From IMG/VR virus record IMGVR_UViG_3300046507_000667, positions 62,001-126,000 of that record: a DNA stretch of 64,000 nt; one strand, written 5' to 3'. The DNA comes from a virus. The notes beneath the pieces were generated by a model. It was not told the origin of the DNA. It saw only the letters and a list, made by a program, of their open reading frames with translations, and made no database searches. The position numbers and the translations under genes were made by a program. Shown one piece after another: positions 3,040 to 63,200 of this stretch (the first letter of the stretch is position 1; each line of letters begins with the position of its first letter).

Positions 3040-4217
3040 ATGGCAATTACAGCTAAAAATCGTAAAAAGGCAGAGAAGTTAATCCTTGATACTTTAAGTA
3101 AGCTTGAGCCATCAGGTATGAATACCGAGAAGTATCGAAAGATCTTCTCGGAAATGTCGGATAAACAGTTCGTAGATTACTTCAAAAAACTTAAAGAAGA
3201 TCGTAATGCACACTTATATGTGGAGTGTGACTTATACGGTAAAAATCAGATTACTTTAGGATCAATCCAAAAAGCTGCTGATTTCTTGAAAGTACCTTTA
3301 GAAGAATATGTTTATATTCGACATAAAACACCTGATGGAACTCCTATCAGAAGTAAGTTCCGTGTACCGGTGATGTATATTCATTTGAAGCGTAATTGCG
3401 CCCATATACTAGAAATAGTGTATGCGTATTACATTAATTGCTGGAAGTCCCTAAAGCTAGTTTAATCTAGATTGAGTATAGCCAAAAGCTATATTTCTAT
3501 ACAATGGGTAATCAGCAGCACTATTTTAACTTATACTTTACCTCGTAAAAATAAATAGTGTTCAACGACTATTCCTGCAATGGAAGTACATATCAAGTGA
3601 TATGGAAATGTGTAATATCCTTCTAGGATAATGATATAGTCTCTTCTTATGTGAAAGCATAAGCTGATAGTTAACAACTATCAATAAGATTAAGTATGCA
3701 ACAGATCCAGACTAAGAAAGTCAAGACTTCTATTGATATTGAATCTGGTAATGTACGTTCGAATATTACTGGTAACTTAAATCAAGATAATAAGTCGGGC
3801 CGATTCACTGATGCAGATACACAAGCTTTTCTATCTATCTTATCTGATAAGAAACTTGAAATTGGAAAGACTGGTAAGAAAGAATCTGCTATTCTTAATG
3901 AATTACTATTGGCTCGTGGTGGTAATGCTGCTATGAAAGCTGCAATGTCAAAGAATATTTCACTCTTTGGCGCTGCTTCCCTACAAGACGTTGATGTAGG
4001 TACATCATATGCAGCAGTATCACCGGGAATTAGTAGTGCATCAGCTATTACAGCAGAACCAGCTAAGAATACTATTGATGCATTCTTAATTGGTGCTGGT
4101 ATGAAGTCTGACATCATCTATAAGTCATTAGTTACACTACAAGGTGAAGCTAGTAAGTCTGAAGGTGGTGATGGTGATGAATTTGCATCATTAAGCAGAG
4201 CATTAGGTCGTGAATAA
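3040..4217 (+). CDS. RNA polymerase beta subunit, C-terminal piece (two exons, spliced 298 aa)
   Basis: Proposed join 3040-3407 and 3689-4217. Exon 1 carries VPVMYIHLK, which matches the VGYMYMLKL segment of bacterial beta. Exon 2 carries DNKSGRFTDADTQAF, in the place of the GGQRFGEMEVWAL segment. This is the part of beta that follows the SRMN motif, and it is missing from the long beta gene at 40168-45533, so the two polypeptides together would make one beta. Splitting of beta into two chains is known from phiKZ-type polymerases. The exon-2 ATG at 3696 has no Shine-Dalgarno, which argues for splicing rather than a separate gene. The C-terminal third of exon 2 is Ala/Ser/Gly-rich. A 3' splice site at 3694 would also stay in frame. 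Confidence 0.75.
3408..3688 (+). ncRNA. group I intron in the RNA polymerase beta C-terminal gene
   Basis: P1 is exon CATAT with GTATG, extended by ACTA/TAGT and capped by GAAA, with the U.G pair at the 5' splice site (3407). P4 strands are in AATTGCTGGAA (3436-3446) and GGTAATCAGCAGC (3507-3519). P6 is GCACTATTT with AAATAGTGT. P7 is formed by GTTCAACGACTATT (3560-3573) and GATATAGTC (3633-3641). P9 is CTTATG/CATAAG. The exon after G3688 begins ATTA, which can pair with TAGT as P10. No endonuclease gene is inside. Core type is certain by eye; the 3' end could shift by 6 nt. Confidence 0.85.
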
Positions 4218-8650: not shown

Positions 8651-9412
8651 TTATGCTGTTGGTGCAGCTACGATTTGCTTAATTGTGTCAATAAGTCTAT
8701 GCTTAAATGCAATTAAGAAATCGGGGAAGTGTTCTGATGAAAGAACGTTAGACATAAGAGTTTGATATGATTCACATGATTCCGAATCAAATAACTCATC
8801 AAGTGCTTCTCGTTCTTCAGAAGTTAGGTCGATATAATCAAAGAATGTACCAATATCAACATTTTCAGCACCTAGTACTGTATTAGCAATATCTAATGCA
8901 TTAACGATAAGAATGATATATTCAGGATTATCTAGATTAAGCTCAGTCTTGATATTCTGATATACTAGATCTTTTCTAGGTGTAGATTGCTTAAACTCAG
9001 GAGCAAGAGTCTTCTTATTGTTATAAGCAAAGCTAATTAGATAAGTTAGTAGATTCTCACGGAATCCAATATAGAAAGTATTGTAAATCAAATTAACTAA
9101 GAAGCGTGCCTGTGGTGCTTCATTAAATTGGTCTGAAATAGCTTTCTTATCAACACCAAAATCTTGACAGAATTGATTGACAATTAATGTATTAGCGGCA
9201 GCTTCTACATTAGTTGCATCATCAATTTGATCTTGATCTAAATCAAATCTATCTTTAATAAAATCAACTTTAGTTACAATCGTATTGTATAAATCATTAG
9301 ATGGTTTATTTGCAATAAGATCTTGGCGGTTTGATAGATATTCATCTAATCCTTCTTGTAAAATGGAGGCTGTCTCCTTTACAAGAATACTGTCACTGTC
9401 TAAACTAAACAT
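8651..9412 (-). CDS. unknown acidic helical protein, 253 aa
   Basis: An acidic, mostly helical protein with no membrane segment. It follows the second terminase exon by 7 nt, so it is expected to be co-transcribed with the terminase. Gene order just after terminase suggests a head-completion, portal-adjacent or neck factor, but no motif supports a specific name. The ATG is preceded by a weak site in the terminase stop region, suggesting translational coupling. Confidence 0.82.
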   Translation of the reverse strand: MFSLDSDSILVKETASILQEGLDEYLSNRQDLIANKPSNDLYNTIVTKVDFIKDRFDLDQDQIDDATNVEAAANTLIVNQFCQDFGVDKKAISDQFNEAPQARFLVNLIYNTFYIGFRENLLTYLISFAYNNKKTLAPEFKQSTPRKDLVYQNIKTELNLDNPEYIILIVNALDIANTVLGAENVDIGTFFDYIDLTSEEREALDELFDSESCESYQTLMSNVLSSEHFPDFLIAFKHRLIDTIKQIVAAPTA

Positions 9413-9419
9413 AATTGTC

Positions 9420-10838
9420 TCACGATCTAAAATGTCTTAAAGGGTCAGCACTAGCTTTACCAGCTAGCATATTGGCTAAATTAGTATCGATACCACTTGA
9501 CTGTGGTCCCTTTACCTTATTATTTTTCTGTCCTAGAATCTTAGCTAGCTGGTCTGGTGGTACACCGTCTAGGATCATTTGGGTTAGTTCAGCAAAGTCA
9601 TGATTTTGACCCTTATTAACTGCAGGATCATCCACAACTTTTCGAGTAATAGCATTGAAATTCTTAGCATTTTGAGCAACTTTAGCTCGTGTTCTTAAGA
9701 ATCTACCAATATTATTACCATATCGAACTACATATTTTACGAATAAGTATGAGAATAAGACGTCATCATGCATACCTACTTCGTGGTCAATACGTCCATT
9801 CTTATAGATAAGACCTTTGACATCATCATATAACTCTGGAATTGCTAAAAGCTCAGGTTCATCTGCAACGATTTCTTTAAGAATATCGATCATTAGAGGA
9901 CGTGAGGCTTTATCAGTAGTAATACCATACTTAATACTATCTGTCTTAGTAGCAGGATTATTAGCTGTTTTGTCTTTATCAGCTAATTTATATTCATAGT
10001 AAATATTCTTAGGAATTACATCTAAGAGATTTTCTACCAGACCTTTACCATAACTATTAAATTCAGGGACTACAATACAGTTAGGCAATTCTTCTTGAAC
10101 TAGCTGTGCAATAAGAGAGCTATATACATTAATATCAATAGTATTATGCTTAAATACTGCTACAGGAGCAAAATCTTTTTCAGGATCAGTAATAGTAAAT
10201 GCTGAATTATCTGCATCAAGACCACCTGCAGTATCAACACCCATGAAATAGACTTTCTCTTTCTTTAGTTCTTCATAGAGTACGATAGGGAATTTGAAAG
10301 TACGGATTTCACCAGTACTCTTGATTACCTTCTTGATATCCATATATTTGATACCAATAGGTGTTCTTTTCTTACTATCAATAATATCTAATTGCTCTTC
10401 AGTAAAGACCGAATTATCTGATGATTTTGTCCATTGTAGGTCAATTTCACGTTTGATAATAGCACGGTCATTATTAAGAACACGACATTCTTTCTTATAC
10501 CACTCTTCATCAAGACCTAATTGTTTCCATGTATAAGAAATATACAAGAAGTCATTTGATGAGTTAGTAGCAATGTAATCTTTTAATATATCACGGTCCC
10601 AATCATACATCTCTTCAACGAAGACACAAGCGTTATCTATAAGACCTTTACAGAAAGCGCCCGCCGGATTGTCAATGTTTGAAGGAGTTGTAGAGATAAT
10701 ACGACCGTGTGGTCTACCATGAGCTTCAGCAATTTCAGATACTTTTGAAATAGCTGGACCTGCTGACTTAAAGATAATATCGTTATACTTTAAGAATGCG
10801 AATTCGTCAGGCCAATAGATCGGGATAGACATACCACG
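9420..10838 (-). CDS. terL: terminase large subunit, exon 2 (Walker B and nuclease domain)
   Basis: This exon joins to 15639-16307 to give a 695-aa terminase. It begins RGMSIPIYWPDEFAF, the Walker B strand with the catalytic Asp-Glu pair. The ATPase coupling motif (IISTTPSN) follows, and then the RNase-H-like nuclease domain starting with FMGVDTAGGLDADNSAF, whose Asp is the first metal ligand. The first ATG in this exon (10832) has no ribosome site and would remove part of the Walker B strand, so it is not an independent gene. The last coding base of exon 1 and first base of exon 2 are both codon boundaries. The product is the motor and nuclease that packages DNA into proheads. Confidence 0.9.
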   Translation of the reverse strand, partial: RGMSIPIYWPDEFAFLKYNDIIFKSAGPAISKVSEIAEAHGRPHGRIISTTPSNIDNPAGAFCKGLIDNACVFVEEMYDWDRDILKDYIATNSSNDFLYISYTWKQLGLDEEWYKKECRVLNNDRAIIKREIDLQWTKSSDNSVFTEEQLDIIDSKKRTPIGIKYMDIKKVIKSTGEIRTFKFPIVLYEELKKEKVYFMGVDTAGGLDADNSAFTITDPEKDFAPVAVFKHNTIDINVYSSLIAQLVQEELPNCIVVPEFNSYGKGLVENLLDVIPKNIYYEYKLADKDKTANNPATKTDSIKYGITTDKASRPLMIDILKEIVADEPELLAIPELYDDVKGLIYKNGRIDHEVGMHDDVLFSYLFVKYVVRYGNNIGRFLRTRAKVAQNAKNFNAITRKVVDDPAVNKGQNHDFAELTQMILDGVPPDQLAKILGQKNNKVKGPQSSGIDTNLANMLAGKASADPLRHFRS

Positions 10839-10973
10839 CTTATGTTATATGATAATCGTTAATTATCAAGCTTATGCTTTCACATAAGATCAGACTATAT
10901 CTTCACCTGTTAAGGGTTCTACATTTCCATTCTACTTAGAATGTACGTAATAGTCGTTGAACAAATTCATCAA
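10839..10973 (-). ncRNA. 3' half of the terminase group I intron (P6 3' strand to splice site)
   Basis: On the minus strand it reads P6 3' strand TTGATGAATTTGT (10961-10973), P7 5' strand GTTCAACGACTATT (10949-10962), GATATAGTC (10893-10901), P9 CTTATG/CATAAG, an extra hairpin GATAAT/ATTATC, and a final G at 10839. P8 can form between TACATT and AATGTA. The first five exon bases CGTGG can pair with TTACG beside the guide sequence in the 5' half (P10). These same elements are in the introns at 3408-3688 and 42931-44141. Confidence 0.88.
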
Positions 10974-10988
10974 AATTTTTGTATGTTC

Positions 10989-11017
10989 CAAAAAAAACCT
11001 ATGATTTCTCATAGGTT
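10989..11017 (-). terminator. intrinsic terminator of the genes inside the intron
   Basis: AACCTATGA pairs with TCATAGGTT across a 4-nt loop, followed on the minus strand by eight T. It lies 16 nt before the P6 3' strand, so transcripts of the cargo genes should stop before the intron's 3' half. Confidence 0.88.
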
Positions 11018-11032
11018 GCTAACTCCTAAGAG

Positions 11033-11662
11033 TTAGACTTCAAAGGTTTGAATGGTAACTCGGAAACGACCCGGAAGAGAATGTACTTCATCCGAATCAA
11101 GAGTTTTGAAAGTATGTGGACTTGACATAACTTTCTTACCAGTCAGTTTACCATCAATCTTTTCGATCATATCTACTACACGATCGTAATGCTCTTTCAG
11201 TTGATCTGCAAAATCTACTTGATCATGCTTATTGCGAAGTTCCCATTCACCATGAAGAAGTTCTTCCAAATAGTGAGGTAGATGTGTAAGGGAATAGTCT
11301 ATGGAAATACCATCCAATCCCTTTTCATCCAATTCTTCTTTCGAAACATCACGAGTTACTGACCAATCAGCAGCATCACTCAGTTGTCCATAGGACGCAT
11401 AAGGATATTGATTATGCCAAACTCGGTCATCGCCAACTATTTGGCTCTTGAAGATAAAGCCATCATGCTTAGGCTCTGCATCTTCACGATCCCATTCATT
11501 ACGAACCTTATGGTGTTCTGTACATTTCAACCAGAAAATGTGAATTCCTTTCAGAGTATTATCCCAAGGGAGATAAGTATTGCTCATCAAAGCATCATTA
11601 CCATTTGCATAATTGAAATGGACACGAATGAACGGAATGATCGAACCGACTTGAAAACGCAT
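11033..11662 (-). CDS. unknown protein encoded inside the terL intron, 209 aa
   Basis: Frame of 209 codons with AAGGAAATTATC before the ATG. The product is soluble, Asp/His/Lys-rich, with aromatic-rich segments (WLKCTEHHKVRNEWDRED). No family is recognised. It is the last gene of the block inside the terminase intron and ends at the terminator before the intron's 3' half. It follows 11689-12060 after 26 nt. Confidence 0.85.
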   Translation of the reverse strand: MRFQVGSIIPFIRVHFNYANGNDALMSNTYLPWDNTLKGIHIFWLKCTEHHKVRNEWDREDAEPKHDGFIFKSQIVGDDRVWHNQYPYASYGQLSDAADWSVTRDVSKEELDEKGLDGISIDYSLTHLPHYLEELLHGEWELRNKHDQVDFADQLKEHYDRVVDMIEKIDGKLTGKKVMSSPHTFKTLDSDEVHSLPGRFRVTIQTFEV

Positions 11663-11688
11663 GATAATTTCCTTAAATAGAAGAATAG

Positions 11689-12060
11689 TTATTTAGGAGC
11701 AGTAAGACGAATTAGCGTCAATTCTGCATCCTTATAGTAGCCATGTGGATCATCCACTGTTCGGCATTGAATTAAAGCTTCTTCCAAGCTAGATGCTTGA
11801 TATTTGAATTCTTTTGTATCTGACCACCTACCTGTAGTTTTTCTTTGGATATGGTAGGTAGCTCTAATATTAGGCCACTTAATACAATGTAGCTCTGATA
11901 CCATACTGATGCCTTTCAATTTCCATTGAGCACCAATTTCGTCTTCCAAGATTCCAACAAGTGTTACTACATGCTCATGTGCTTGAAAATCAGTATCAAT
12001 TAGTTTTAAAGTACCTGTTGGCATAAGCCATTCAGTGAACTGATTGAAACGAGGTTTCAT
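11689..12060 (-). CDS. unknown protein encoded inside the terL intron, 123 aa
   Basis: A 123-codon frame whose ATG overlaps the stop of the gene before it (12057-12548), indicating translational coupling. The protein is mixed alpha/beta with Trp-rich patches (AQWKLKG, IKWPNIRATYHIQ) and no membrane segment. No motif names it. Part of the leftward block in the intron's P6 loop. Confidence 0.85.
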   Translation of the reverse strand: MKPRFNQFTEWLMPTGTLKLIDTDFQAHEHVVTLVGILEDEIGAQWKLKGISMVSELHCIKWPNIRATYHIQRKTTGRWSDTKEFKYQASSLEEALIQCRTVDDPHGYYKDAELTLIRLTAPK

Positions 12061-12548
12061 AGCGTAATAGTAACTGCATCAGGAAACAGTTTTTGCAGAT
12101 GATTTTCCATTTCCTTACGACGAGCTTCACGAATATGAAAATCCGAATTTGGCGAATCATCACCAAGAAAGAATTCATATACTCGCTTTGGTTCTTCAAT
12201 TCCTTTTTCTTTTCGAAGCGCTATAAGCTTTTCACGCATAGGAGAAGGAGCATGATAAGTATGAACACGCTTAATTGCTTCATCAATACAATTAGTAATG
12301 GATTCTTCATTATCACCAAAGTATTGACCACTACCTTCTTGATAATTATGTAATTGGCGAATAGCAAAGCTAAATCCACCAACAGTCATAGTACGACGAA
12401 TACGAAGAAGTGATAGGAATCCTCCCGGATTATCCTTTACACCATATTCAATATAATTGAAAAGACCTTCTTTCAAAAGAACCATCATAGATGTCAGTTG
12501 CTTCTTAACTTGAAGTTCCTGATCAATCTTTTCTTGAGTCATCAGCAT
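12057..12548 (-). CDS. unknown protein encoded inside the terL intron, 163 aa
   Basis: A 163-codon frame; starts at 12548 or 12542 are both ATG and the first has GGTAAAG upstream. The product is helical and charged, ending DAVTITL, with a basic middle (RIRRTMTVGGFSFAIRQLH). No family is recognised. It is flanked closely on both sides (4-nt overlap downstream, 6 nt upstream), so it is an internal operon gene. Confidence 0.83.
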   Translation of the reverse strand: MLMTQEKIDQELQVKKQLTSMMVLLKEGLFNYIEYGVKDNPGGFLSLLRIRRTMTVGGFSFAIRQLHNYQEGSGQYFGDNEESITNCIDEAIKRVHTYHAPSPMREKLIALRKEKGIEEPKRVYEFFLGDDSPNSDFHIREARRKEMENHLQKLFPDAVTITL

Positions 12549-12554
12549 AATTCT

Positions 12555-12770
12555 TTACCGTTTAATTTCAGGAGGAAGAGCATTATAATAATGATAATTA
12601 GCAAGCCAACCATTAATCAATGCTTTAGCAAGAGTCTCATCTTCAGTGTAATACAATGAAGGCCAAGATTCCTTGACATACATATTGCAAAATCGTTGTC
12701 CAAGGCGAAGTTTATCTTGTTTCCTTGCATTATGGAGACTCAAGAATTTTGCATATGCTTCAGTAGTCAT
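12555..12770 (-). CDS. small unknown protein inside the terL intron, 71 aa
   Basis: A 71-codon gene overlapping the stop of 12767-13048 by an ATGA arrangement. The protein is rich in Tyr, Leu and Lys and looks helical (ALINGWLANYHYYNALPPEIKR at the end). No known domain. The tight overlap is the main evidence that it is translated. Confidence 0.78.
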   Translation of the reverse strand: MTTEAYAKFLSLHNARKQDKLRLGQRFCNMYVKESWPSLYYTEDETLAKALINGWLANYHYYNALPPEIKR

Positions 12771-13048
12771 TGATCACCCTCATCAAGCCACTTCATAATA
12801 CGTTCAAAAAGCGACTCCTTTACTTCACGAAATTCATTAACACAATGAAATCGCTTCTCTCCAGCACCCATAGTACGAAAGGTAATGCTAAACCAATCTC
12901 CAGTTCGATTATCGAAACAAGGATCGACATACTTAATGGAAGGACGATACTTTCCATTAGGAAGAAGACAAGTCCTAAAAGGACTATTTTCTTCTGCAAC
13001 CTTCTTAAGAACTTGTGTAAGTTCTTCATGGGTCATTGGACGGCTCAT
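12767..13048 (-). CDS. small unknown protein inside the terL intron, 93 aa
   Basis: A 93-codon gene with AAGGAAAAGAC before the ATG. It contains Cys, His and aromatic residues (FRTCLLPNGKYRPSIKY, DWFSITFRTMG) and an acidic C-terminus. It resembles no family I can name. It overlaps the next gene by 4 nt. Confidence 0.82.
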   Translation of the reverse strand: MSRPMTHEELTQVLKKVAEENSPFRTCLLPNGKYRPSIKYVDPCFDNRTGDWFSITFRTMGAGEKRFHCVNEFREVKESLFERIMKWLDEGDQ

Positions 13049-13057
13049 GTCTTTTCC

Positions 13058-13261
13058 TTAATGACGAATAATTTTGAAATAGTCCGCAGTGATATTACCA
13101 GCACCTTCAAGGCGCTTGCTATTGTGACCAACCACTCCCCACACAATTGAAGCATTTTTATGTGAATCTACACTGTGGGCAGTTACCATAGCACGTTCAA
13201 GTACATCAAAGTTGGCGAACGGTTTGGTAAATTCAATGATACTACCAGTCTTAACGTTCAT
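13058..13261 (-). CDS. small unknown protein inside the terL intron, 67 aa
   Basis: The start is placed at 13261 because GGAAAGAAG precedes it; an upstream in-frame start would run into the hairpin at 13300-13327. The product is 67 aa, basic at the C-terminus and without a membrane segment. No family is recognised. It is 9 nt upstream of 12767-13048. Confidence 0.78.
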   Translation of the reverse strand: MNVKTGSIIEFTKPFANFDVLERAMVTAHSVDSHKNASIVWGVVGHNSKRLEGAGNITADYFKIIRH

Positions 13262-13299
13262 CTTCTTTCCAAAAATTAAAATGTTTATTAGGAAAGTGG

Positions 13300-13327
13300 G
13301 AGAGACCATTTAGATCTCTCCCTTCGT
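13300..13327 (-). terminator. hairpin between two cargo genes, possible terminator
   Basis: GGGAGAGAC...ATCTCTCCC around CATTTAG, downstream of 13340-14440. The minus-strand tail (ACTTTCC) is poor in T, so it may be a partial terminator or an RNA-stabilising hairpin. Confidence 0.55.
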
Positions 13328-13339
13328 CAATCTGCTTGC

Positions 13340-14440
13340 TTATGCAAACGGATTGAAGAATTCATACCAACGACCATGGTTCAGACGATAGCTCGTTTGC
13401 ATGTTACGAAGCTTTTCAGCTTCGGTATACTTCCAATTGAACAGAATGTCCTTGAAGCCTTCGCCCAGCGTTTTCAGGCATTCACCTGCATCACGCAGAA
13501 CATAGAGCGTCTTGTCAACGATAAAACCACAAACCTTCTTGGTCTTATCGATAACATAGACAGTCACCTTCTTGGTACCATTCCATGCATACACACAAAC
13601 CGACTGAACACCTTCAATCGTCCAGTTGATTGCCTTACCAGCACCTTCAACAACGTCACCGCAGAAGTCGCCAATCTTGTCGAGGATCGTAACTTGTTCG
13701 ACCTTCGCATTCACGGCAGCATTTGCAATTTCTTCTTCAACATCGACACCAGCAGCATGCAGTTGCTCTTCGATAGCGCCTTTCAAGATCTCATTGTCCA
13801 CTGCTTCTTGGACCGATTCCGGCTTGGGCATCGATGCTGAAACTGCTTCTTGCACGATTTCCTTTGCGGGAAGATGTGCATGTTCTGCAGCATTAACGAT
13901 GTTAACCATCGCTTCAGCAGCATTAGCTACTTTCGATGCAATCGGACCGAGATCAGCAGATTCCTTCACTGCTTGAACTTGAGCCTTGATATCGACAACT
14001 TCGATATCTTTCGGAAGAATCAGCATGAAAAGTACGTTGTGATGCTTTTCATCGCTCGTAACCGAAACGATTTCTGCATCAGCACCGCATTCATGAGCGA
14101 TGTGTTGAAGACGAACTTCAACTTCATCACCATTGCTAGGTGCTGCAACTTCTTGACCATCGATTTTTGCATCAAGAGAAACATGCAGAATCTGAGCCTG
14201 ATGGCCATTCAGATCAAGTTGTTCTTCAAGTGCAAAGAACGAATCCTTGAACGTTGCTTGATACACTTTCAGCGATTCTTCCAGCTTGGTCAAGCTGAAT
14301 TTCGAAGCATCCGTATTGAAAGTCGGGATGACGACTTTGATGTCCTTCATCGAACGTGCAACCGGTTTCTTAGCCGAAACCTTCTTAGCTGCTGCGTTGA
14401 CGTTACCATTCTTTGCTGCGACGTTGATGTTCTTTGCCAT
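13340..14440 (-). CDS. large unknown protein inside the terL intron, 366 aa
   Basis: The product has a Lys/Ala-rich N-terminus (AAAKKVSAKKPVARS), an acidic Ala/Glu/Val-rich helical middle, and a C-terminal region with repeated Lys-Thr-Lys-Val and Val-Tyr units (VTVYVIDKTKKVCGFIVDKT) that could be amphipathic strands or helices. Codons end in C or G more often than in neighbours, so its base composition is visibly different, suggesting high expression or recent arrival. A DATATATTATT motif lies at 14523-14533. No family is recognised; nucleic-acid or membrane association would fit the charge pattern. Confidence 0.85.
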   Translation of the reverse strand: MAKNINVAAKNGNVNAAAKKVSAKKPVARSMKDIKVVIPTFNTDASKFSLTKLEESLKVYQATFKDSFFALEEQLDLNGHQAQILHVSLDAKIDGQEVAAPSNGDEVEVRLQHIAHECGADAEIVSVTSDEKHHNVLFMLILPKDIEVVDIKAQVQAVKESADLGPIASKVANAAEAMVNIVNAAEHAHLPAKEIVQEAVSASMPKPESVQEAVDNEILKGAIEEQLHAAGVDVEEEIANAAVNAKVEQVTILDKIGDFCGDVVEGAGKAINWTIEGVQSVCVYAWNGTKKVTVYVIDKTKKVCGFIVDKTLYVLRDAGECLKTLGEGFKDILFNWKYTEAEKLRNMQTSYRLNHGRWYEFFNPFA

Positions 14441-14522
14441 GATTGAAAGAGACCTTATAGAGAATTAGAAGAGTTATTACTAAGTGTCTTGAATTTCGAA
14501 TATTTCTATTCGTGATCAGGTG

Positions 14523-14533
14523 AATAATATATC
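14523..14533 (-). promoter_or_regulatory. early-type promoter motif inside the terL intron
   Basis: Minus strand GATATATTATT, 83 nt upstream of the ATG of the 366-aa gene. Confidence 0.7.
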
Positions 14534-14579
14534 AGCATTATATGCTTTAATACGCTTATTTCACCGGATCATACAAATA

Positions 14580-15176
14580 TTACAAAGAGATAAAGCTACG
14601 TGCATTCAAAAGGAAGTCTTCAAATTCAGGAAGTTCCTTTTGCACATGAAGCAGATTGTTGAAGAGGCTCGTAAGGAATGCTGCCATATCTTCAGAAACT
14701 TCGATAGACGTACGGCCATTCAAACGATATACGATATTGACTTCCTGAACGATACTACAGATAATATCTGAAGCAGCATTAGCAAGATCTTTATCTTCAA
14801 ATCGTTCAATACGAGAAGCAATTGCAAGCAACGTTACAGCCGTATCATTCCAAAGGTGAATTCTCGGAAGATATGCTTCGAAGTTATACTTTAGATAGAT
14901 CTTGAATGATGTCAGATCGACTTCAGTACCTTCTTCCATTGCTCGTTCAATAGCATGCTGAGAAAGACGTGAAAGAGTCTTTTCAATTCTACTATCAGAA
15001 TTATCTCCCAACATACCTTGCTTCTTTAATTCTCCAACGAAATCTTTAATCACTTCATTAGTCTGAAGTTCTTCAAAGAAATTCAGAACACGAGAAGGAT
15101 CTTCCTTATCTAGCTTAATCAGCAGTGCAGCTGCTTTGTTAATGGCTTTATTCGTCAGATTGAAATTCTTCGACAT
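14580..15176 (-). CDS. unknown helical protein inside the terL intron, 198 aa
   Basis: A 198-codon gene with AAGGAAAAAGAATC before the ATG. It is almost entirely helical, with regular Leu/Ile and charged residues (RIEKTLSRLSQHAIERAMEE), and has no Cys cluster or membrane segment. No family is recognised. A weaker promoter-like motif lies at 15227-15236. Confidence 0.85.
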   Translation of the reverse strand: MSKNFNLTNKAINKAAALLIKLDKEDPSRVLNFFEELQTNEVIKDFVGELKKQGMLGDNSDSRIEKTLSRLSQHAIERAMEEGTEVDLTSFKIYLKYNFEAYLPRIHLWNDTAVTLLAIASRIERFEDKDLANAASDIICSIVQEVNIVYRLNGRTSIEVSEDMAAFLTSLFNNLLHVQKELPEFEDFLLNARSFISL

Positions 15177-15226
15177 GATTCTTTTTCCTTGAGAATGTTG
15201 GAATGCTTATATTGCGATCAAGGAAA

Positions 15227-15236
15227 AAATATATAC
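15227..15236 (-). promoter_or_regulatory. weak early-type promoter motif inside the terL intron
   Basis: Minus strand GTATATATTT, 50 nt upstream of the 198-aa gene; it lacks the final TATT of the consensus. Confidence 0.4.
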
Positions 15237-15257
15237 TTATTAGCTATTTAAATACGA

Positions 15258-15431
15258 TTAATCGTTAGTCTGAATATTACCCAATTTCTTGGGAATTAAT
15301 ACTTCCTTAGCTACTTGCTCAAATTCGGGCCATAGCTTACGAAACTTGACAAAAGGAATAGAAATTGTTACTCCTTCAACTTCAATTTCAACTTCACGCT
15401 TTTCTTTATTTGCTTTGATAGATGATGACAT
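15258..15431 (-). CDS. small unknown protein inside the terL intron, 57 aa
   Basis: Start placed at 15431 because TAGGAAAGAAA precedes it. The product is 57 aa with alternating Lys and Glu (KEKREVEIEVEGVTISIPF), probably a small beta-rich protein. No family is recognised. It is the first gene after the 5' half of the intron, 64 nt downstream of a promoter motif. Confidence 0.75.
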   Translation of the reverse strand: MSSSIKANKEKREVEIEVEGVTISIPFVKFRKLWPEFEQVAKEVLIPKKLGNIQTND

Positions 15432-15494
15432 TTTCTTTCCTAAATAGTTAACAAAAATCTCGACTCCGCATATCTGGGTCATAGGCACCAAGAT

Positions 15495-15505
15495 AATAAT
15501 ATATT
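15495..15505 (-). promoter_or_regulatory. early-type promoter motif at the start of the intron cargo
   Basis: Minus strand AATATATTATT, only 20 nt beyond the P6 5' strand. It would let the nine cargo genes be transcribed without the terminase message. Confidence 0.7.
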
Positions 15506-15525
15506 TCTGAAGTATTAGTTAATGC

Positions 15526-15638
15526 TTGATGAATTTGCTGCTGATTGCCATAGATACTAATTTACATTTTTCCGGAATGCTAGTTAGGATCTTTACGGGG
15601 TTCCAGCAATTAATAGAATTTATACAGAGCCGTAAGTA
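15526..15638 (-). ncRNA. 5' half of the terminase group I intron (splice site to P6 5' strand)
   Basis: On the minus strand: intron start TACTTACG, guide GCTCTGT pairing with exon ACAGGGT, P4 5' strand in AATTGCTGGAA (15601-15611), P4 3' strand in GGCAATCAGCAGC (15537-15549), then the P6 5' strand ending at 15526. If not spliced, translation of exon 1 would run on to a TAA at 15519-15521, giving a truncated ATPase of 262 aa. Confidence 0.88.
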
Positions 15639-16307
15639 ACCCTGTTTGTCTGCTTGTTCTTCAGAAATTGGCTGACCATTGACGTCGATCTTATTATTAC
15701 GCTGCACACTATGTACTGATTCAAGATTATCAGTATCACCTCTATCTGCTAAGGCATCTTGAATGTATTTAGGTAAATGTAATGTAATATCCTTAAATCG
15801 CTTTAAGTTATTCTTAGCATCACCTAAGCTCTTATTTGCAAAGAGCATATTAGTATTTTTAGTACTAAAGTTATAGATGTAATTTAGTGCTGCTGCAATA
15901 GAAATTGTTTTACCACGCTGACGAGATAGTAAGCATATCAAGTCAAAGTTATTAAAAATTGCCCAAGTAATAGCTAAGTTACCCGGATGCAATTCAAATT
16001 TAACAGTACCACCCGGAGCTACAATCTTTACTACTTCTCTTAGATAGTAGTAAGGATTTTTTGTAATTTCCGTAATGATTTTTGTCTTTTGTAACTCAGT
16101 TAGATTTTTTCTATGAGGATCAATACCTTTTAAACTTTTATCATAGAGTCGTAGAAAGAACTTGTTATTTTTAATACCACGTTCCTTCAAATACTTAAAC
16201 ATCTTGATGAAAGAAAGGTTCTTAGTCTCGGTGTCAATTACATAGTCACCATAGTCCGTTTCCCCATAGATAGCTTTATTGTAAGCTGCTTTACTAAGCG
16301 ATACCAT
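15639..16307 (-). CDS. terL: terminase large subunit, exon 1 (N-terminal ATPase part)
   Basis: Exon 1 encodes 223 residues. The Walker A-like motif LLSRQRGKT is at residues 126-134, the form seen in T4 gp17-type terminases (SRQLGKT). The exon ends ...EEQADKQG and continues in exon 2 with RGMSIPIYWPDEF, which is where large terminases have a Gly-Arg-Gly turn before Walker B. The start has AAAGGAAAGCTT upstream. It is preceded by the terminator of the 16435-17772 gene, so it has its own transcription start. Together with exon 2 it makes a protein of normal length for a jumbo-phage terminase. Confidence 0.88.
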
Positions 16308-16383
16308 AAGCTTTCCTTTAAAAAGAGGGATTTACTATGTGAGTGTTCAACTTCTCCGTTCACACAAAAAATTCAAGAAAATT

Positions 16384-16415
16384 GAAAAAAAAAGAAGCCC
16401 CGTTAGAGGCTTCTT
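16384..16415 (-). terminator. intrinsic terminator after the winged-helix-like gene
   Basis: AAGAAGCC...GGCTTCTT stem, followed on the minus strand by a T-rich tract. It separates the accessory gene from terL. Confidence 0.85.
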
Positions 16416-16434
16416 CCTAGCTATAAGCTGGAAG

Positions 16435-17772
16435 TTACTTCATTTTGACATCTGCAACAATCGCTAAAAGAACTGACTGTTGTTGTGCATTGAGAGTGAA
16501 GCCACTCTTGATGCCAGAGAGGAATGCAATCTTTTCCTCTTTCGTGATGTCAAGTCTAGCACCAGCTCCAAGAATTGCATCCTTGTAAGTAGCATAGACT
16601 TTCTTGTTGATACTGAAGAATTGGCATTCATTCATTTCTTCAATTTCAACAAGCTTCAGCTTAATGAGCCTATCGACAGCCTGAACGAATGCATATTTGG
16701 TTGCACGCAATCCATTTTCCAATTCATCGAGATAAATCGGAGTAGGATGAACCATGATACGTTCGATCAATGTCGTTTCAAGCAAAGAGAAAGCTACTTC
16801 AGTCTTTGGCTTGGGAGGACGAACAACTGCTCGACGAACAATGTCAGGAGTCTTTTTGCTTGAAGTTTCTGATTCAGGCTCTTTGACAGGAGGTGTTTCT
16901 GTCGGTTCTTCTTTCCTAGGCACGCTCGGAGTTTCTTCCGGTTGTGGTTGAGGAACTGGTTTCGAAGGTACATCCTCGGAAGGAGTGTTATTTGAAACCA
17001 ATGCCAGTTGAGTAGGAAATTTTTCTACTGGCGTGATCATCGGAGAACCTGACTTTGTGTTCGAATACTTCTGAACGATTTCAGTAGTAGGAGAGACCAT
17101 CTTGGCATCCTTCTTTCCAGAGTTCTTATCAGCGTGCATTGCGCTTAATCCGATTGATCTTTCAACATTCAATCCCAATGCATTAAGAATCTTGTCAGCC
17201 ATTTTGTCATCGGGATTGATTTGGTAGGAATAGCGACGATGCGTTCCTTCACGAATAATCATACCAGTCTTATACAACGTAGACAAAGTAGCACTCGTGA
17301 TATTAAACGGTACACCAATTTTCTTGCTGATCATTCCAGAATCATACTTAATTCCATAATTATCAAACAAGAGTTGAAGTACCTCATACAGGATGGTAAA
17401 TTTCCGTTCTTTCTTATCCTTTGTAAGAGAATAAGTTTGATTTACAACGTCATAATCAAAGCCATAATAATGACAAAGACGTTCAACGTCACCAATAGTT
17501 GCAGGAAGGTCATACTTCCTTTCACCATTTGAAGCCTTAAAGGTAATGAGAAAACCGGGATAAACATTGGTCGTGAGATACATACGCTCAATGTAATCTT
17601 CAGTCTTATCATTCCACCCAAGCAGCTTATGAATCTTCTCACAAGAAAGACTACCTTTCTCTTTAAGAAGATTAAGAATATTCAGGAAGTTCTCCTTAGT
17701 ATTCTTAGAGTTAAACTCTGCTGCAGCTGCTTCATTTTCCATTTCGACAACTGACAAAGCCATTGCTTTCAT
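16435..17772 (-). CDS. two-part winged-helix-like DNA-binding protein with Pro-rich linker, 445 aa
   Basis: The N-terminal 200 residues have repeated helix-turn-helix/winged-helix features (ENFLNILNLLKEKGSLSCEKIHKLLGW; ISKKIGVPFNITSATLSTLYKTGMI with a basic wing, EGTHRRYSYQI). A linker of about 110 residues is rich in Pro, Glu, Lys and Thr. The C-terminal part has another small helical domain (FVQAVDRLIKLKLVEIEE). This suggests a transcription or replication factor, by inference. Codon use is GC-richer than in the neighbours, as in 13340-14440. A promoter motif is at 17835-17845. Confidence 0.65.
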   Translation of the reverse strand: MKAMALSVVEMENEAAAAEFNSKNTKENFLNILNLLKEKGSLSCEKIHKLLGWNDKTEDYIERMYLTTNVYPGFLITFKASNGERKYDLPATIGDVERLCHYYGFDYDVVNQTYSLTKDKKERKFTILYEVLQLLFDNYGIKYDSGMISKKIGVPFNITSATLSTLYKTGMIIREGTHRRYSYQINPDDKMADKILNALGLNVERSIGLSAMHADKNSGKKDAKMVSPTTEIVQKYSNTKSGSPMITPVEKFPTQLALVSNNTPSEDVPSKPVPQPQPEETPSVPRKEEPTETPPVKEPESETSSKKTPDIVRRAVVRPPKPKTEVAFSLLETTLIERIMVHPTPIYLDELENGLRATKYAFVQAVDRLIKLKLVEIEEMNECQFFSINKKVYATYKDAILGAGARLDITKEEKIAFLSGIKSGFTLNAQQQSVLLAIVADVKMK

Positions 17773-17834
17773 TGCATTTTCCTTGAATTGAATATTTCTT
17801 ATTAGCGACTAAATTCTTCGATCTAGTCATTAGT

Positions 17835-17845
17835 ATAATATATTC
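17835..17845 (-). promoter_or_regulatory. early-type promoter motif
   Basis: Minus strand GAATATATTAT, 63 nt upstream of the 445-aa gene. Confidence 0.7.
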
Positions 17846-17867
17846 CTATATACTGCTATAATACGAA

Positions 17868-18233
17868 TTATACTTGCCAAGCTAAGTTAGTGACATCGTT
17901 ATTAGTAAGATCACCATCTTTGAAAACTAGCTTATTCAAGTTATTGGGACACTTGCCAAGAAATGCTTCAGCAACTAGCCATGCTACTCGAAAGCTTTTT
18001 GATTTACCTTCCTTACTAAGATTCACACCAATATAGTCAGTAGTATGACTAAGGGCCATCATTTTGCCCTTAATAATGGTAGTCTTTTCAGGTTGATTCA
18101 ATGCAATAGTTGCACCACCTTGACTTAATACTTTTACTTTTCTTGGACGATCTTCTGAACGCACTTTACCAGTATTACTAACTGAATAAGAACCTTCATA
18201 GCCAACTACAGGCTTCCATACAACAGTATTCAT
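17868..18233 (-). CDS. NUMOD4/HNH homing-endonuclease relative with missing catalytic His, 121 aa
   Basis: The N-terminus (WKPVVGYEGSYSVSNTGKV) is a clear NUMOD4 DNA-binding motif. The C-terminal half follows the HNH_3 pattern (AWLVAEAFLG ... LVFKDGDLTNNDVTNLAW), but the two His residues normally found at H-x-LVAxAF and vNHxDG are replaced by Ala/Trp and Phe. The NN and NLxW parts remain. Nuclease activity is therefore doubtful, and it may be a domesticated DNA-binding protein. Its gene stands alone with no intron around it. Family call is strong; loss of activity is inferred from the missing residues. Confidence 0.8.
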   Translation of the reverse strand: MNTVVWKPVVGYEGSYSVSNTGKVRSEDRPRKVKVLSQGGATIALNQPEKTTIIKGKMMALSHTTDYIGVNLSKEGKSKSFRVAWLVAEAFLGKCPNNLNKLVFKDGDLTNNDVTNLAWQV

Positions 18234-43100: not shown

Positions 43101-45533
43101 ATAGTTGCCAATGATTTTACCAAAGAGTCTAAAAGGGCTAGATTTTATGATACATGTCCAGCATGTAGAACTTCTAAAAGAAGTCCTTTGGATAAGGTAA
43201 AAGAAGATATCAGAATTGCTACTAAAGATAGATTATTACTTTTAGAATATGGTGGAACAACACATACCCCATCTAAATTTAAATGTAAAATCTGTAATTA
43301 TGATGATATCAAAATATCTACGCATAGTTTATTAGGAAATTTAAAGTCAAGATCAAATTCTAATTCATGGGGATGTGCTGTTTGTTCAAAAAAGAAACAG
43401 AAAACTACTCAAGAATTTAATAAAGAAATTGATCAACTTTTTAATGGTAATATTGCACTTATTTCAGAATATGTAAATGTAGGGACTTATGTATCTTTGA
43501 AATGTAATAAATGTACATATGAATGGAATACCATGCCATCAACTATTCTAGGCGGATCCCAGTGTCCAGCATGCTTAAGAAGTTTTAGAGATTCTAAGCA
43601 AATTAGAAGAGTGATTGAATTTCTTGATAAATATGAAGTACCTTTTGAAAGAGAAGTAACTTTTGAAGGTCTAGTTTATAAAAAGCAACTGTATTTTGAT
43701 TTTTGTATTGAAACAGAAGATACTTATTTCTTGATTGAATTCGATGGACAGCAGCATTTTAGAGGCTGGCAAGGTAATGAAGATAATCTAAATGAAAACC
43801 AAATTCGAGATAATATCAAGAATGATTTTTGTAAAGATAATGATCTTCCTTTACTTCGTTTGCATTATAAAATGACTCTGTCTGAAATTGATAAGGCTAT
43901 TTATGATTTTCTCTTCAGTCCAGAATAAACTTCTTTAATTGCTGGAAACCCTCTAACAAAGGCAATCAGCAGCGAAGCCCTTAATTGGGAACGTTCAACG
44001 ACTATTATGTACTTATCAAATGATAAGGAAATAGGAAGCACCTAATTAGGTGAAGATATAGTCTATTCTTATATGAAAATATAAGTTATGAGCTAATGAC
44101 TCATAGTAAATATAAAAGTAAATTCAGATGATGCATATACGCCTGAAATTCGTGCATATGATAAGTCAATGCTAGGTGTGTATGGTATTTATACGCCTAT
44201 TTCATCACAAGTTGGTGTAAGTCGTGGTCTTGTAATGAATCCACGCTATCATTCAACTCGTGGCTATCTAAAGGATATGGATCTAAAGACTGCTCGTGCT
44301 GATAATTTATTCACTGCGGCAGAACTTCTAAATGTCTTTACACCAAAGCATGCTGATAGTCCTCGTGCTATTATGGCTTCAGTACAAGGTCGTCACTTGA
44401 CACCAACAAAAGTACAGGATCCTTACCTAGTTGGTAGTGGTGTTGATAAAGCACTTCCGCATATGGTTGGTCAAGACTTCGCCTTTAAAGCAACAGATGA
44501 TGGCACAGTTATTAAGATTGACCAGAAGAAAGAACTAGCAATTCTACAATATAAGAATGGCGAGAAAGCAGCAATTGATTTCTCACCAAAACCAGCTAAA
44601 AATAGTGGTGGTGGCTTCTTTATTCAGAATAAGCTTGATCTTAATGCAGAAGTTAAGGTAGGCTATAAATTCAAGAAAGGTGATATTCTTGCTAAGGATG
44701 ATAACTTCTTCAAGGATATGCTAGATGGTTCTACTGGCTTTGCGGCTGGTCGTCTATCAAAGCTTGCTGTTCTCGCTCTACCTGAGACATTCGAAGATTC
44801 GTGTGTTATTACACAACAAGTTGTAAGTGATATGTCATCGGATATTATTAATGAACGTGAAGTAGTTTTAAAGAAAAATTCACGTATCATTAGTGTGGCT
44901 AACGTTGGTGATGAAGTTGAAGTTGATACACCACTAGTTGTATTCGAAGAAGTAGGTTCTGATGAAACATTAGCTGTTGCTGCTTTAGAAAAGCTTGATG
45001 CACAAACTAAAGGCACTATCAGTGAACTAGCTCGTTCGACTGCAAAGTCAAAGTTTGCTGGTAAGATTTTCGCTATTCGTATTTATTACAATGCAGAATT
45101 AGATGAAATGCATCCAACGCTAAAGAATATTGTCGAGCAGTACAAAGACAAATATGATTCTAAGGCAAAGATCATTCAGACACTGAAGAAGGATGAAATT
45201 ATTCAGCAACCTTCAACTGAAAAGCATAATGGTGAAAAGCTATTAGGTAATGATGTTGATGGTGTTGTTATCAAGTTCTTCATCATGCATGATGATAAGA
45301 TGGCTATTGGTTCAAAGGTAACTGCATTCACTTCACTAAAGTGTATTATTGCAGAGACTATTCCAGAAGGAAAGGAACCATATACAGAGTACAATAAGGA
45401 TGAAGAACTATCAATGTTCCTAAGTCCATTATCTATTGTCTCTCGTATGACTACTGACTTCTATCTCTTAGGCTTTAGTAATAAAGTTATTATTGAACTA
45501 GAGAATCAAGTATTAGATCTTCTAGAAGAATAA
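40168..45533 (+). CDS. RNA polymerase beta subunit, N-terminal piece (two exons, spliced 1,384 aa)
   Basis: Proposed join 40168-42930 and 44142-45533. Exon 1 includes a very acidic loop at about residues 255-330 (SDESEEVQPDQVAPAEEEQQ) and ends GPSGLNPTY. Exon 2 begins PEIRAYDKSMLGVYGIYTP, which matches the [21 protein letters not shown] segment of bacterial beta. Later LSPLSIVSRM matches LNPLGVPSRMN. The rest of beta (MYMLKL and GEMEVWAL segments) is encoded at 3040-4217, so this is the larger of two beta chains. AAGGAAGATATATC precedes the ATG. Exon-2 ATG 44169 has no ribosome site and should not be taken as a separate gene. Confidence 0.88.
42931..44141 (+). ncRNA. group I intron in the RNA polymerase beta gene, with endonuclease gene
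   Basis: 5' splice site after exon CATAT (42930), pairing with GTATG (42950-42954) and CC/GG inside. P4 strands in AATTGCTGGAA (43937-43947) and GGCAATCAGCAGC (43961-43973). P7 from GTTCAACGACTATT (43993-44006) and GATATAGTC (44055-44063). P9 CTTATAT/ATATAAG. The exon after G44141 begins CCTGAAA, which pairs with TTTTAGG beside the guide (P10, 7 pairs). Both splice points are codon boundaries. The endonuclease gene fills the region between P1 and P4. Confidence 0.9.
42957..43928 (+). CDS. intron-encoded homing endonuclease with zinc modules and Vsr-like nuclease, 323 aa
   Basis: Three Cys-rich modules (KHSKCGNTFDIVANDF..CPAC; FKCKICN..CAVC; LKCNKCTYEW..CPAC) resemble the zinc-binding repeats of DUF723-type homing endonucleases. 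The C-terminal 75 residues (KKQLYFDFCIE, then FLIEFDGQQHF, then LPLLRLHY) are the EDxHD/Vsr-like nuclease fold known from I-Bth0305I, with Asp, Glu and His in place. The gene lies inside the intron at its expected position. It would cut intron-less beta genes and spread the intron. Family call is from motifs. Confidence 0.85.
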   Translation: MRKALTTEKFQENVNTIFGADTYTVISEYTKSSGYISIKHSKCGNTFDIVANDFTKESKRARFYDTCPACRTSKRSPLDKVKEDIRIATKDRLLLLEYGGTTHTPSKFKCKICNYDDIKISTHSLLGNLKSRSNSNSWGCAVCSKKKQKTTQEFNKEIDQLFNGNIALISEYVNVGTYVSLKCNKCTYEWNTMPSTILGGSQCPACLRSFRDSKQIRRVIEFLDKYEVPFEREVTFEGLVYKKQLYFDFCIETEDTYFLIEFDGQQHFRGWQGNEDNLNENQIRDNIKNDFCKDNDLPLLRLHYKMTLSEIDKAIYDFLFSPE

Positions 45534-60258: not shown

Positions 60259-63200
60259 TCAGCCCATTACACCACCCGTAGCAACTCTTAGAGCGCCGGG
60301 AGATGGTTGTAAATAGCTAGGGATTGTGGATGATTCGAAACTAGTCCTTCTTTTGATTCGATCGTCAGCACGTTCTGCAGCAGCTACCTTATCAGATTGA
60401 ACCTTATCAGCAGATGATGTTTGACCACCACTAAAGAAATTACCACCATTCTTAGTGTTTTCAGCAATCTGTTTGAGTAGATCAACCTGTTGTGATAGAA
60501 GATCAGTATGCTTACCACTATCCTGACTATTAGCTGTATTAGAGCCACCACCTGCACTAATATTAGCAACCTGCTGAATGTTCTGGGAAGCATTACTTCC
60601 TGGAGCATTTGTAGAAACTACTAGAGGAGCCGGAGCACCCTTCATAGATGCATTAGCATTTGGCGCATTATTAGACATTTGAGTAGCCGCAGACATTGTA
60701 GCCTGTGGACTTGCAGAAGCTGAAGTAGCAGTAGCACCCATTTTCATAGGTTCAACCTTACCTGAAGCAACTGTACCCTGTAGTAATGGTGGAGTCTTTA
60801 GCTTACTAGAAGCATAAATATCCCATGCAGAGAGGAATGACTTTGGATCACCAGTAGCAGCCTTACCAGCACCGGGAGGTGGATTGGTAGACATATTACG
60901 TAGTGTACTAGCATCTAATGGCGCTCCATTAACAGCAGCATCATAGATCTTAGCAACTCCACCCGGACCCTGTTGGTGTGCCATATACAGTGAAGTACCT
61001 GTAACTGGAATACCCTTCTTTTCTAGATAAGCTTTATTAGCTAATGTGAAGCGTGCAGCAGCTTCAGTAGCCATAGCTGGATCTAAAGGATTACCTAGTG
61101 GGTTAGGAGAATATTGCTTCCATGCATCAGTACCAAATTGGAATAAACCTGCATAGCCAAACTTATTAACTACATTATTTCGACCACCAGATTCAATTTG
61201 GGACATTCCCTTCAGATAGTCATATGGTAAACCATATTTACCTGAAGCGGCCTTAATAGCAGCATCGATTTGCTCTGGAGAAGCATTGACTGTAGGAAGA
61301 TTACCACTAGAGAATTTAGCAGGTAATGCATTAATAGCAGTACCTTGTGTAGTTTTGCTCTTAGTATCAGCACCATTACCACCAGCCCCAAAGAAGCCAG
61401 CAATACGATCCTTATTAGCTACTAATGCTCCACCTACACCACCAATAAGCGCACCCGGAAGAGCACCGATACCGCCAAAGAAACTACCAGCAGTACCACC
61501 AATACTAGCACCAGTTAAGGCACCATGTAAAGTGTCATTCCAGAAACCACCCTTCTCTGTAGTCTTATCAATGATAGCATCACCAGCTAAACTAGCAACG
61601 ATACCACCTACACCCTTAAGACCCATCATACCAAGCTTACCTGCCTTGGCTAATAGACCCAATTTACCAGCTTTTCCAGCTAATCCTGCAACTCCATTAA
61701 GACCTTTACCAGCTACTCTACTTAATGAACCTTTTGATCTAGATAATTTACGAGCAGTACGCTTTAGCCATGATGAACGACGACGTTTAGCATTTCTCTC
61801 CATACCATCTAAAAGATCACCGGGACCATCACCACCACCTGCAGCCTTAGCAGTAAGAAGAGCAATTAGACCAGTAAAGCCTTTCTTAAGGAAGCCAAAG
61901 AATTTAGCACCAAATGCAAGAAGACCTGCACCAATAGCTGATTCTCCAACATGACTTAAGAGACCACCTAGAATACCCTTGGATACATCACCATCATTCT
62001 TAGCTGTAACGGCACCCTTAATACGCTGCTTAAAGCCCATTGTAAACTTACTAAATCTTGTACCCATTGGTCCAGTATACTGATAGGAACCAATCTTACC
62101 ATCTACTACGTAAACATGTAGAGGACGACGACGAGTTAGATTAATAAGTTCTGAATGATTGCTTACATAAACAGCTTCACCACTCTTACCCATTTGGCCA
62201 AAATGACCTACACCTAGTACTCTACCAGCTACTCTTGATGCAGTATTAACTACTCCACGTGCAGCAGTTAGACCAAATTTAGCTACAGAAGCAGCTAATT
62301 TAAGGAGACCTACAGTAGCATGACCTAAACCCTTTACGAAGGTATTAATTACTGGAACTGCACTCTTAATAAGTGTAGTAGTAATTGATGCTAATCCCTT
62401 AGCTAATGGGACAGCTACCTGTGACATAAAGTGTCCAGCAGCTTCAACGATAGATGAAATAGCTTTAGTTGCAGCCTTTAGTAATGAAGTAGCAACTTGA
62501 CCTACAGATACAATCGCATGACCTAGAAGTTCAACACCAGCCTTAACTGCTTTACCTAATGCATTGGCAAGAGTAGGAATGATATTTAGAACACCCTTGG
62601 TAATACTAATACCTGCTTGGAAAATAGCCTTACCTAATTGCTTAGGAATTTGCCATAGACCCTTTACTACACCACTAATCATACTAGTTGCAGTATTAAG
62701 AAGCTTAAATGGAGCCTTAAGAATCCCCATTGTCATATCTTTCATCCAACGAAGTGGATTACTAAAGAATGATGTCTTGCTTCCTGCATATTTAGCTGGT
62801 TTACCCTTTAGACGACGTAGAATATTTTCAACTCGTGTATCGAGTCTAGTCATATTTTTACGCATAAAGCCTAGAATGCTACCTGTATTTTGAGCAGTTA
62901 GTCGTAGATCTGAACCATTTAGCGGAGTTAATGCTTTACCTGTTCTTGTCTTAGCAGCTTCAGCATGAACCTTTGGAGCAGTTTCTGCTGATAGATTAGC
63001 TACATCTACAGTATTACGATCATTATGCTCATGAATATTGGTACCTACTTGAGCGCCATGTGAAGAATGTGGCTTAAGAACTGTACCATCTTCAGCAATA
63101 TGACCACTTCTTTGTAGAGAAGAGATTTCAGCTGGAGTTACAGTACGTCCTGCAGCAGCCTGAGCAATCTTTACAGCACCTCTAGCACTACCATTAGCTG

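Follow-up and report, generated by a model that had tools for sequence, protein, structure and literature searches.

A group I intron in the terminase gene of a jumbo phage with nine genes, probably an early operon, in its P6 loop

The terminase gene (TerL) of the bacteriophage in IMG/VR record IMGVR_UViG_3300046507_000667 is interrupted between codons 223 and 224 by a group I intron of 4,800 nt, the P6 loop of which carries nine genes (the cargo). The record is 249,347 bp long and the part analysed here, referred to as the window, comprises its positions 62,001 to 126,000 (64,000 nt). It is very probable that the intron is spliced and that the cargo is an early operon. Comparison with related genomes shows an exact insertion, empty sites in relatives, a conserved core, helices that covary between the two intron halves and, in three phages, cargo flanked by promoter and terminator. 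By its TerL the phage is closest to Yersinia phage phiR1-37 and the AR9/PBS1 group, which places it among the phiKZ-like jumbo phages of the phiR1-37/AR9 type, a group characterised by having both a virion and a non-virion RNA polymerase (PMC5312081, PMC7598289).

The interrupted terminase gene

The first-pass annotation, made from the window's sequence alone, placed the two terminase halves 4.8 kb apart, and the exons are indeed separated by exactly 4,800 bp. The 5' exon is 61.6% identical to g143 of phiR1-37 and the 3' exon 50.6% identical to g145 (93% of the open reading frame (ORF) covered). Joined, the exons form a single ORF of 695 aa that reads ...ADKQG|RGMSIPIYWPDEF... across the junction. 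The codon-to-codon join proposed earlier is borne out, as the junction is in phase 0, exact to the codon, and restores the ADKxG-RG motif of uninterrupted homologues. The 3' exon is colinear with the unbroken TerL of BpSp, Goe21, S6 and L005, in all of which tblastn with the joined protein runs continuously across the site. Most examined IMG/VR relatives are likewise unbroken here, with ADKxG-RG or near variants, and the close intronless relative L103 reads GACAAGCAAGGT-CGAGGTATGTCA. The break falls within the ATPase, between its Walker A and Walker B sides.

Structure of the intron

The ends and the core have the features that define group I introns. P1 is ACAGGGU/GCUCUGU with a U.G wobble at the 5' splice site, omega-G is present at the 3' end with P10 intact, and the conserved P3-P4-P6-P7 core includes a P7 of GACTA/TAGTC and the P3 pseudoknot. 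The helices P1, P4, P6, P7 and P10 that had been recognised by eye are all present in the sequence. For P6, previously given as 13 pairs, the location was correct (15526-15538/10961-10973), and the count becomes 14 consecutive pairs if flanking and G-U pairs are included; 12 consecutive pairs at a fixed register would arise by chance with a probability of about 1e-5. A covariance-model search of each half, as the first-pass annotation had suggested, matched the 3' half alone to Rfam Intron_gpI (RF00028) at 36.3 bits (E 5e-8) and the 5' half, weakly, at 17.1 bits. Because each half covers only part of the model, both scores fall short of the 50-bit gathering score. An Rfam scan of the whole window did not detect the TerL intron, since the insert (4.5 kb) exceeds the span of the model, and the halves were therefore searched separately. 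Compared with shuffled sequences, the fold of the joined halves has z = -3.5, and the two orthologous introns described below -3.5 and -4.9.

Orthologous introns and empty sites

Orthologous introns occupy the identical codon in phiR1-37 (deposited as g143/g144/g145) and in the metagenome contig L104 (IMGVR_UViG_3300046542_000230). P1 is identical in all three, the P7 region is shared with L104, and phiR1-37 is 86% identical in the first 42 nt and 83% identical in a 36-nt stretch of the 3' core. The P6 strands are CAAATTCATCAA/TTGATGAATTTG here, TAATGAAAAA/TTTTTCATTA in phiR1-37 and TATAGACAAAA/TTTTGTCTATA in L104. With the helices of these three sequences aligned by hand, two-sided compensatory changes are found at eight of ten compared positions of P6, where all 30 cells pair, at three of five in P3 (with one L104 mismatch), at all three in P8 and at four of six in P9; P10 has one mismatch in L104. 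P3 and P6 each pair a strand from one side of the cargo with a strand from the other and covary, and therefore both halves belong to a single predicted RNA structure. For that structure, the orthologous introns and the covariation of P6 and P3 are the decisive evidence.

The site is empty in L103/L160 and in L164-L167, consistent with exact insertion into an otherwise intact gene. Together with the orthologous introns and the covariation, these empty sites back the original reading of a group I intron with a nine-gene insert in P6. At 4.8 kb the insert is the longest in the set, followed by phiR1-37 (1,953) and L104 (~1,800). Two further loci, L149 and L150, matched the P1 DNA pattern and were discarded for want of a TerL match.

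A probable early operon in the P6 loop

The nine cargo ORFs fill 86% of the intron and all lie on the TerL strand. Each has a coding signal in its own frame only, with a codon bias resembling that of the phage's own genes, and a Shine-Dalgarno-like (SD) motif precedes seven of the nine. In family scans of all nine proteins the only match was phrog_6714, for g6, and none of the products matched an endonuclease (Pfam, PHROGs, NCBIfam, PADLOC), which a homing intron would be expected to encode. No homologue was found for seven of the genes. Three neighbourhoods of g6 and g9 homologues were inspected, and in all of them small genes, most of them hypothetical, are clustered. There were no significant cargo homologues elsewhere in the same genome, and none in intronless relatives within the loci fetched. 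A marginal BLAST similarity linking g3, phiR1-37 g144 and the L104 gene (E 0.01-5) is compositional and is not claimed. Single-sequence AlphaFold models were unusable (mean pLDDT 41 for g3 and 32 for g9). The cargo has the appearance of an accessory early gene set, and a role in host take-over is a guess from context. Upstream of TerL (17868-18233, minus strand) lies a free-standing NUMOD4/HNH_3 protein, possibly a former or collaborating homing endonuclease.

The motif ATATATTAT-N5-TG was found in 33 of 249 upstream regions in this genome, against 0.1 expected, and agrees with the AR9 early consensus AAATATATATTAT-6N-G (PMC5312081). It marks the cargo as a probable early operon of the virion RNA polymerase (vRNAP) type, with start positions predicted from the motif. 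In all three introns the P6 loop consists of a vRNAP-type early promoter, one or more genes and an intrinsic terminator: nine genes here and one each in phiR1-37 and L104, none of which resembles a homing endonuclease. In L104 the promoter has a variant form of the motif. The terminator is also annotated at the equivalent position in phiR1-37 and was found in L104. In both, its T-run is the 3' strand of P6 (L002:2966-3010 in phiR1-37; L104:12220-12270), and termination and ribozyme folding therefore share bases. The first-pass annotation did not cover this organisation of the cargo as a self-contained early unit with promoters and terminator, nor the same layout, with one gene, in phiR1-37.

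TerL, as in phages generally, is presumably a late gene, and the unit, lying within its intron, would then be an early operon inside a late gene. Another early unit lies directly upstream of TerL (16389-17846, minus strand), with a promoter at 17842, a 445-aa gene of weak MarR similarity and a terminator at 16418-16389. It has no match beside TerL in phiR1-37 or L104.

Table 1. Positions of the terminase exons, intron elements, cargo genes, regulatory signals and further group I introns (window coordinates unless a genome piece is named).
Feature	Position	Strand	Basis or remark
TerL 5' exon	15639..16307	-	residues 1-223, Walker A side; ends at codon G223
TerL 3' exon	9420..10838	-	residues 224-695
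Group I intron, 4,800 nt	10839..15638	-	omega-G at 10839; splice sites set by P1, P10 and homologue colinearity
P1	within 15624..15645	-	exon 15639-15645 with 15624-15630; sequence
P10	15631-15635 with exon 10834-10838	-	5' strand pairs with exon; sequence
P3 5' strand, UUCUA	15614..15618	-	partner 10917-10921 beyond cargo
P4, P5 and P6 5' strand	15526..15608	-	P4 15604-15608/15539-15543; P6 5' strand 15526-15538; partial Rfam match, joined-half fold
P6 3' strand	10961..10973	-	complement of 15526-15538
Catalytic 3' half	10871..10955	-	P7 (10950-10955/10893-10898), P3 3' strand (10917-10921), P8, P9 (10871-10888); Rfam Intron_gpI alignment
Early promoter (vRNAP type), P6 loop	15489..15507 (cited at 15503)	-	AAATATATTAT-N5-TG; consensus motif
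Variant early promoter	15219..15233 (cited at 15233)	-	TATATTTTTTCCTTG; near match, weaker, uncertain
Second consensus early promoter	14517..14535 (cited at 14531)	-	motif
Cargo g1, 57 aa	15258..15431	-	coding signal, SD; no family
Cargo g2, 198 aa	14580..15176	-	coding signal, SD; no family over cut-off
Cargo g3, 366 aa	13340..14440	-	coding signal; no family; G+C 45.5%, block maximum
Cargo g4, 83 aa	13058..13309	-	coding signal
Cargo g5, 93 aa	12767..13048	-	coding signal; 4-nt overlap with g6
Cargo g6, 71 aa	12555..12770	-	phrog_6714 (E 8e-5); homologue in Burkholderia jumbo phages BcepSauron, BcepSaruman
Cargo g7, 163 aa	12057..12548	-	coding signal; 4-nt overlap with g8
Cargo g8, 123 aa	11689..12060	-	coding signal
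Cargo g9, 209 aa	11033..11662	-	homologues in Rhizobium, Xanthomonas LucasX, Pseudomonas Lu11 and HRDY3, and Dickeya phages
Intrinsic terminator, 3' of last cargo gene, within intron	10988..11017	-	9-pair stem, then T run
Putative TerL late promoter	16336..16347	-	AACA-N6-TA; AR9 late motif
Further group I intron	3382-3663	+
Further group I intron	43854-44085	+
Further group I intron	L084:12509-12752	-
Further group I intron	L086:5243-5442	+
Further group I intron	L091:2426-2653	-
Further group I intron, DNA polymerase-like gene	L085 ~17400-18180	+	187-aa ORF
Further group I intron, replicative helicase-like gene	L090 ~8800-9960	-	329-aa ORF

Proposed expression and alternative explanations

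The layout suggests that the P6 loop of the group I intron, which interrupts the late terminase gene after codon 223, has taken in an early operon that is expressed independently. The virion RNA polymerase would transcribe the nine cargo genes early in infection, from loop promoters at 15503, 14531 and perhaps 15233, and the transcript would stop at the terminator (11017-10988) within the intron. The late transcript would be made by the non-virion RNA polymerase, starting upstream of TerL (AACA-N6-TA, 16347) and continuing in cis through the full 4.8 kb. With the long P6 closing it off from the cargo, the intron core (P3-P9) would then splice the exons to give the 695-aa terminase. Splicing, its timing, readthrough of the terminator and an early action of the cargo against the host are what we infer from this arrangement. 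Other phage TerL introns are spliced in vivo (PMC11878797).

Several points weigh against this account. For this phage the case is built on DNA sequence and comparison, the covariation comes from three hand-aligned sequences, P3 of L104 is mismatched at one of five positions, and P4 of phiR1-37 is imperfect in the compared register. The intron is not mentioned in the RNA-seq paper on phiR1-37. The late motif AACA-N6-TR occurs in 50 of 249 upstream regions against 23 expected, no more than roughly double what chance would give; in its favour, spacings of 5 or 7 show no enrichment. Finally, an intrinsic terminator lies between the intron halves, and late transcription must read through it. This terminator is the main unexplained point, raising the question of how it can stop one polymerase early and yet let another through late. 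The simplest answer is termination specific to one polymerase; a more radical one is trans-splicing.

That the intron is real and the cargo is not an early operon, its genes being expressed only by readthrough from TerL or being decaying passengers, is unlikely. A function could be assigned to none of the nine genes and seven are without a homologue found, which speaks for this reading; the two consensus early promoters, the terminator, the SD sites and the in-frame codon bias argue the other way. So does the finding that, within cargo genes, two of the three differences between the window and the second assembly L004 are synonymous, a number too small to prove selection.

Trans-splicing, in which the halves are separate RNAs owing to the internal terminator and are united by the 13-pair P6 with P3 and P7, is decidedly improbable. 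It would account for the terminator between the halves in all three phages and for the length of the inter-half P6 (12-14 consecutive pairs). Extended P6 helices are also known, however, from ordinary cis group I introns, and no late-promoter match is present between the terminator and the 3' half. In phiR1-37 and L104 there is no room for a late promoter, because the terminator T-run lies in P6. Were termination in the loop nevertheless the rule, for which we see slender prospects, TerL would be made by natural group I trans-splicing and packaging would begin only once both RNAs had accumulated.

It is still harder to believe that the terminase consists of two subunits, with ORFs of 262 and 470 aa translated apart and the intron remnants dead. 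An ATG at codon 226, a chance-level late-promoter match across the 3' splice site (10846) and the annotation of two genes in phiR1-37 are compatible with this idea. However, the split lies inside the ATPase, and all other mapped homologues are whole or have inserts at intron sites. The methionine after the junction is no evidence for a separate start or an adaptation to one, because intronless L103 has it too (RGMSLP). A dead intron would not have kept P1, P7, P10 and omega-G intact or preserved P3, P6, P8 and P9 through covariation, as is the case here. Lastly, an assembly artefact or recent recombination placing an unrelated block between the TerL halves is strongly disfavoured and verges on negligible: the record is a metagenome assembly, but L004, assembled from a different metagenome, contains the complete insert at 99.96% identity (6 differences in 14,555 bp), and the P6 arms bracket the cargo exactly as in the isolate genome of phiR1-37.

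If the intron is spliced in cis as proposed, splicing would be tied to the timing of packaging. The central claim is testable on existing reads, as phiR1-37 is an isolate with published RNA-seq.

Other introns in the genome and in relatives

At least seven group I introns besides that of TerL are present in the genome (Table 1), making eight or more in total; where examined, the further ones hold no or one ORF each. In mapped relatives, TerL inserts of 0.2-2 kb are found at several sites. Each intron among those inspected has at most one ORF, and several of them resemble homing endonucleases or are annotated as such. Among these phages, TerL is a hot spot for introns. In Listeria phage LPJP1 (L098:3248-3891), group II intron matches lie between the TerL halves, at the group I site of other phages. 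In PBS1 (MF360957.1 5105-8306; L231), TerL is annotated as the separate genes 7 and 9, gene 7 being called "truncated", whereas the near-identical layout of AR9 is annotated as spliced. Annotators should be aware that, where genes separate two terminase halves, the intervening stretch may be an intron.

Comparison with known systems

Phage introns are usually viewed as the home of one selfish endonuclease. This one would instead act as an expansion slot through which an essential gene accommodates a whole early operon. Typical examples (T4 td, Bastillevirinae, Staphylococcus jumbo phage TerL) share with it the class of host gene, the core structure and a peripheral-loop ORF, but as a rule contain no or one homing endonuclease ORF. 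Bastillevirinae introns average 802 bases, and one holds two coding sequences (PMC11878797). No report of a phage intron with more than two was found in the literature, most subscription journals being outside the search, and nine genes in a phage intron are new as far as found. The earlier view that multi-gene group I introns were undescribed holds, to that extent, for phages and fails more widely, as a coral mitochondrial intron holds 15 genes; AR9 has one nested early gene.

The phiR1-37 TerL intron is orthologous, with the same codon, P1 and core and a P6 loop containing early promoter, gene and terminator. It differs in carrying a single gene, g144 (526 aa), for which BLAST showed no significant similarity to any of the nine, and in being deposited as a split gene. 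The cargo is thus wholly different between relatives while the ribozyme core is kept. AR9 likewise provides a case of an intron in a late gene that contains an early gene together with the vRNAP promoter serving it (PMC5312081), but a single gene, compared with nine here. Matched by gene number and position, with numbering off by one, the deposited annotation suggests that it is an HNH homing endonuclease in the vRNAP beta gene. AR9 TerL itself differs in having four small group I introns.

The mushroom coral mitochondrial ND5-717 group I intron, with 15 genes in its P8 loop (PMC3073962, PMC6545197), also places many mobility-unrelated genes in a single group I intron loop. It differs in using P8, in its length of 18-19 kb, and in its circular genome and back-splicing of a permuted transcript. 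Back-splicing was rejected for the phage, where it would require a transcript around the 249-kb genome; here the loop is that of P6, and a linear cis precursor is possible.

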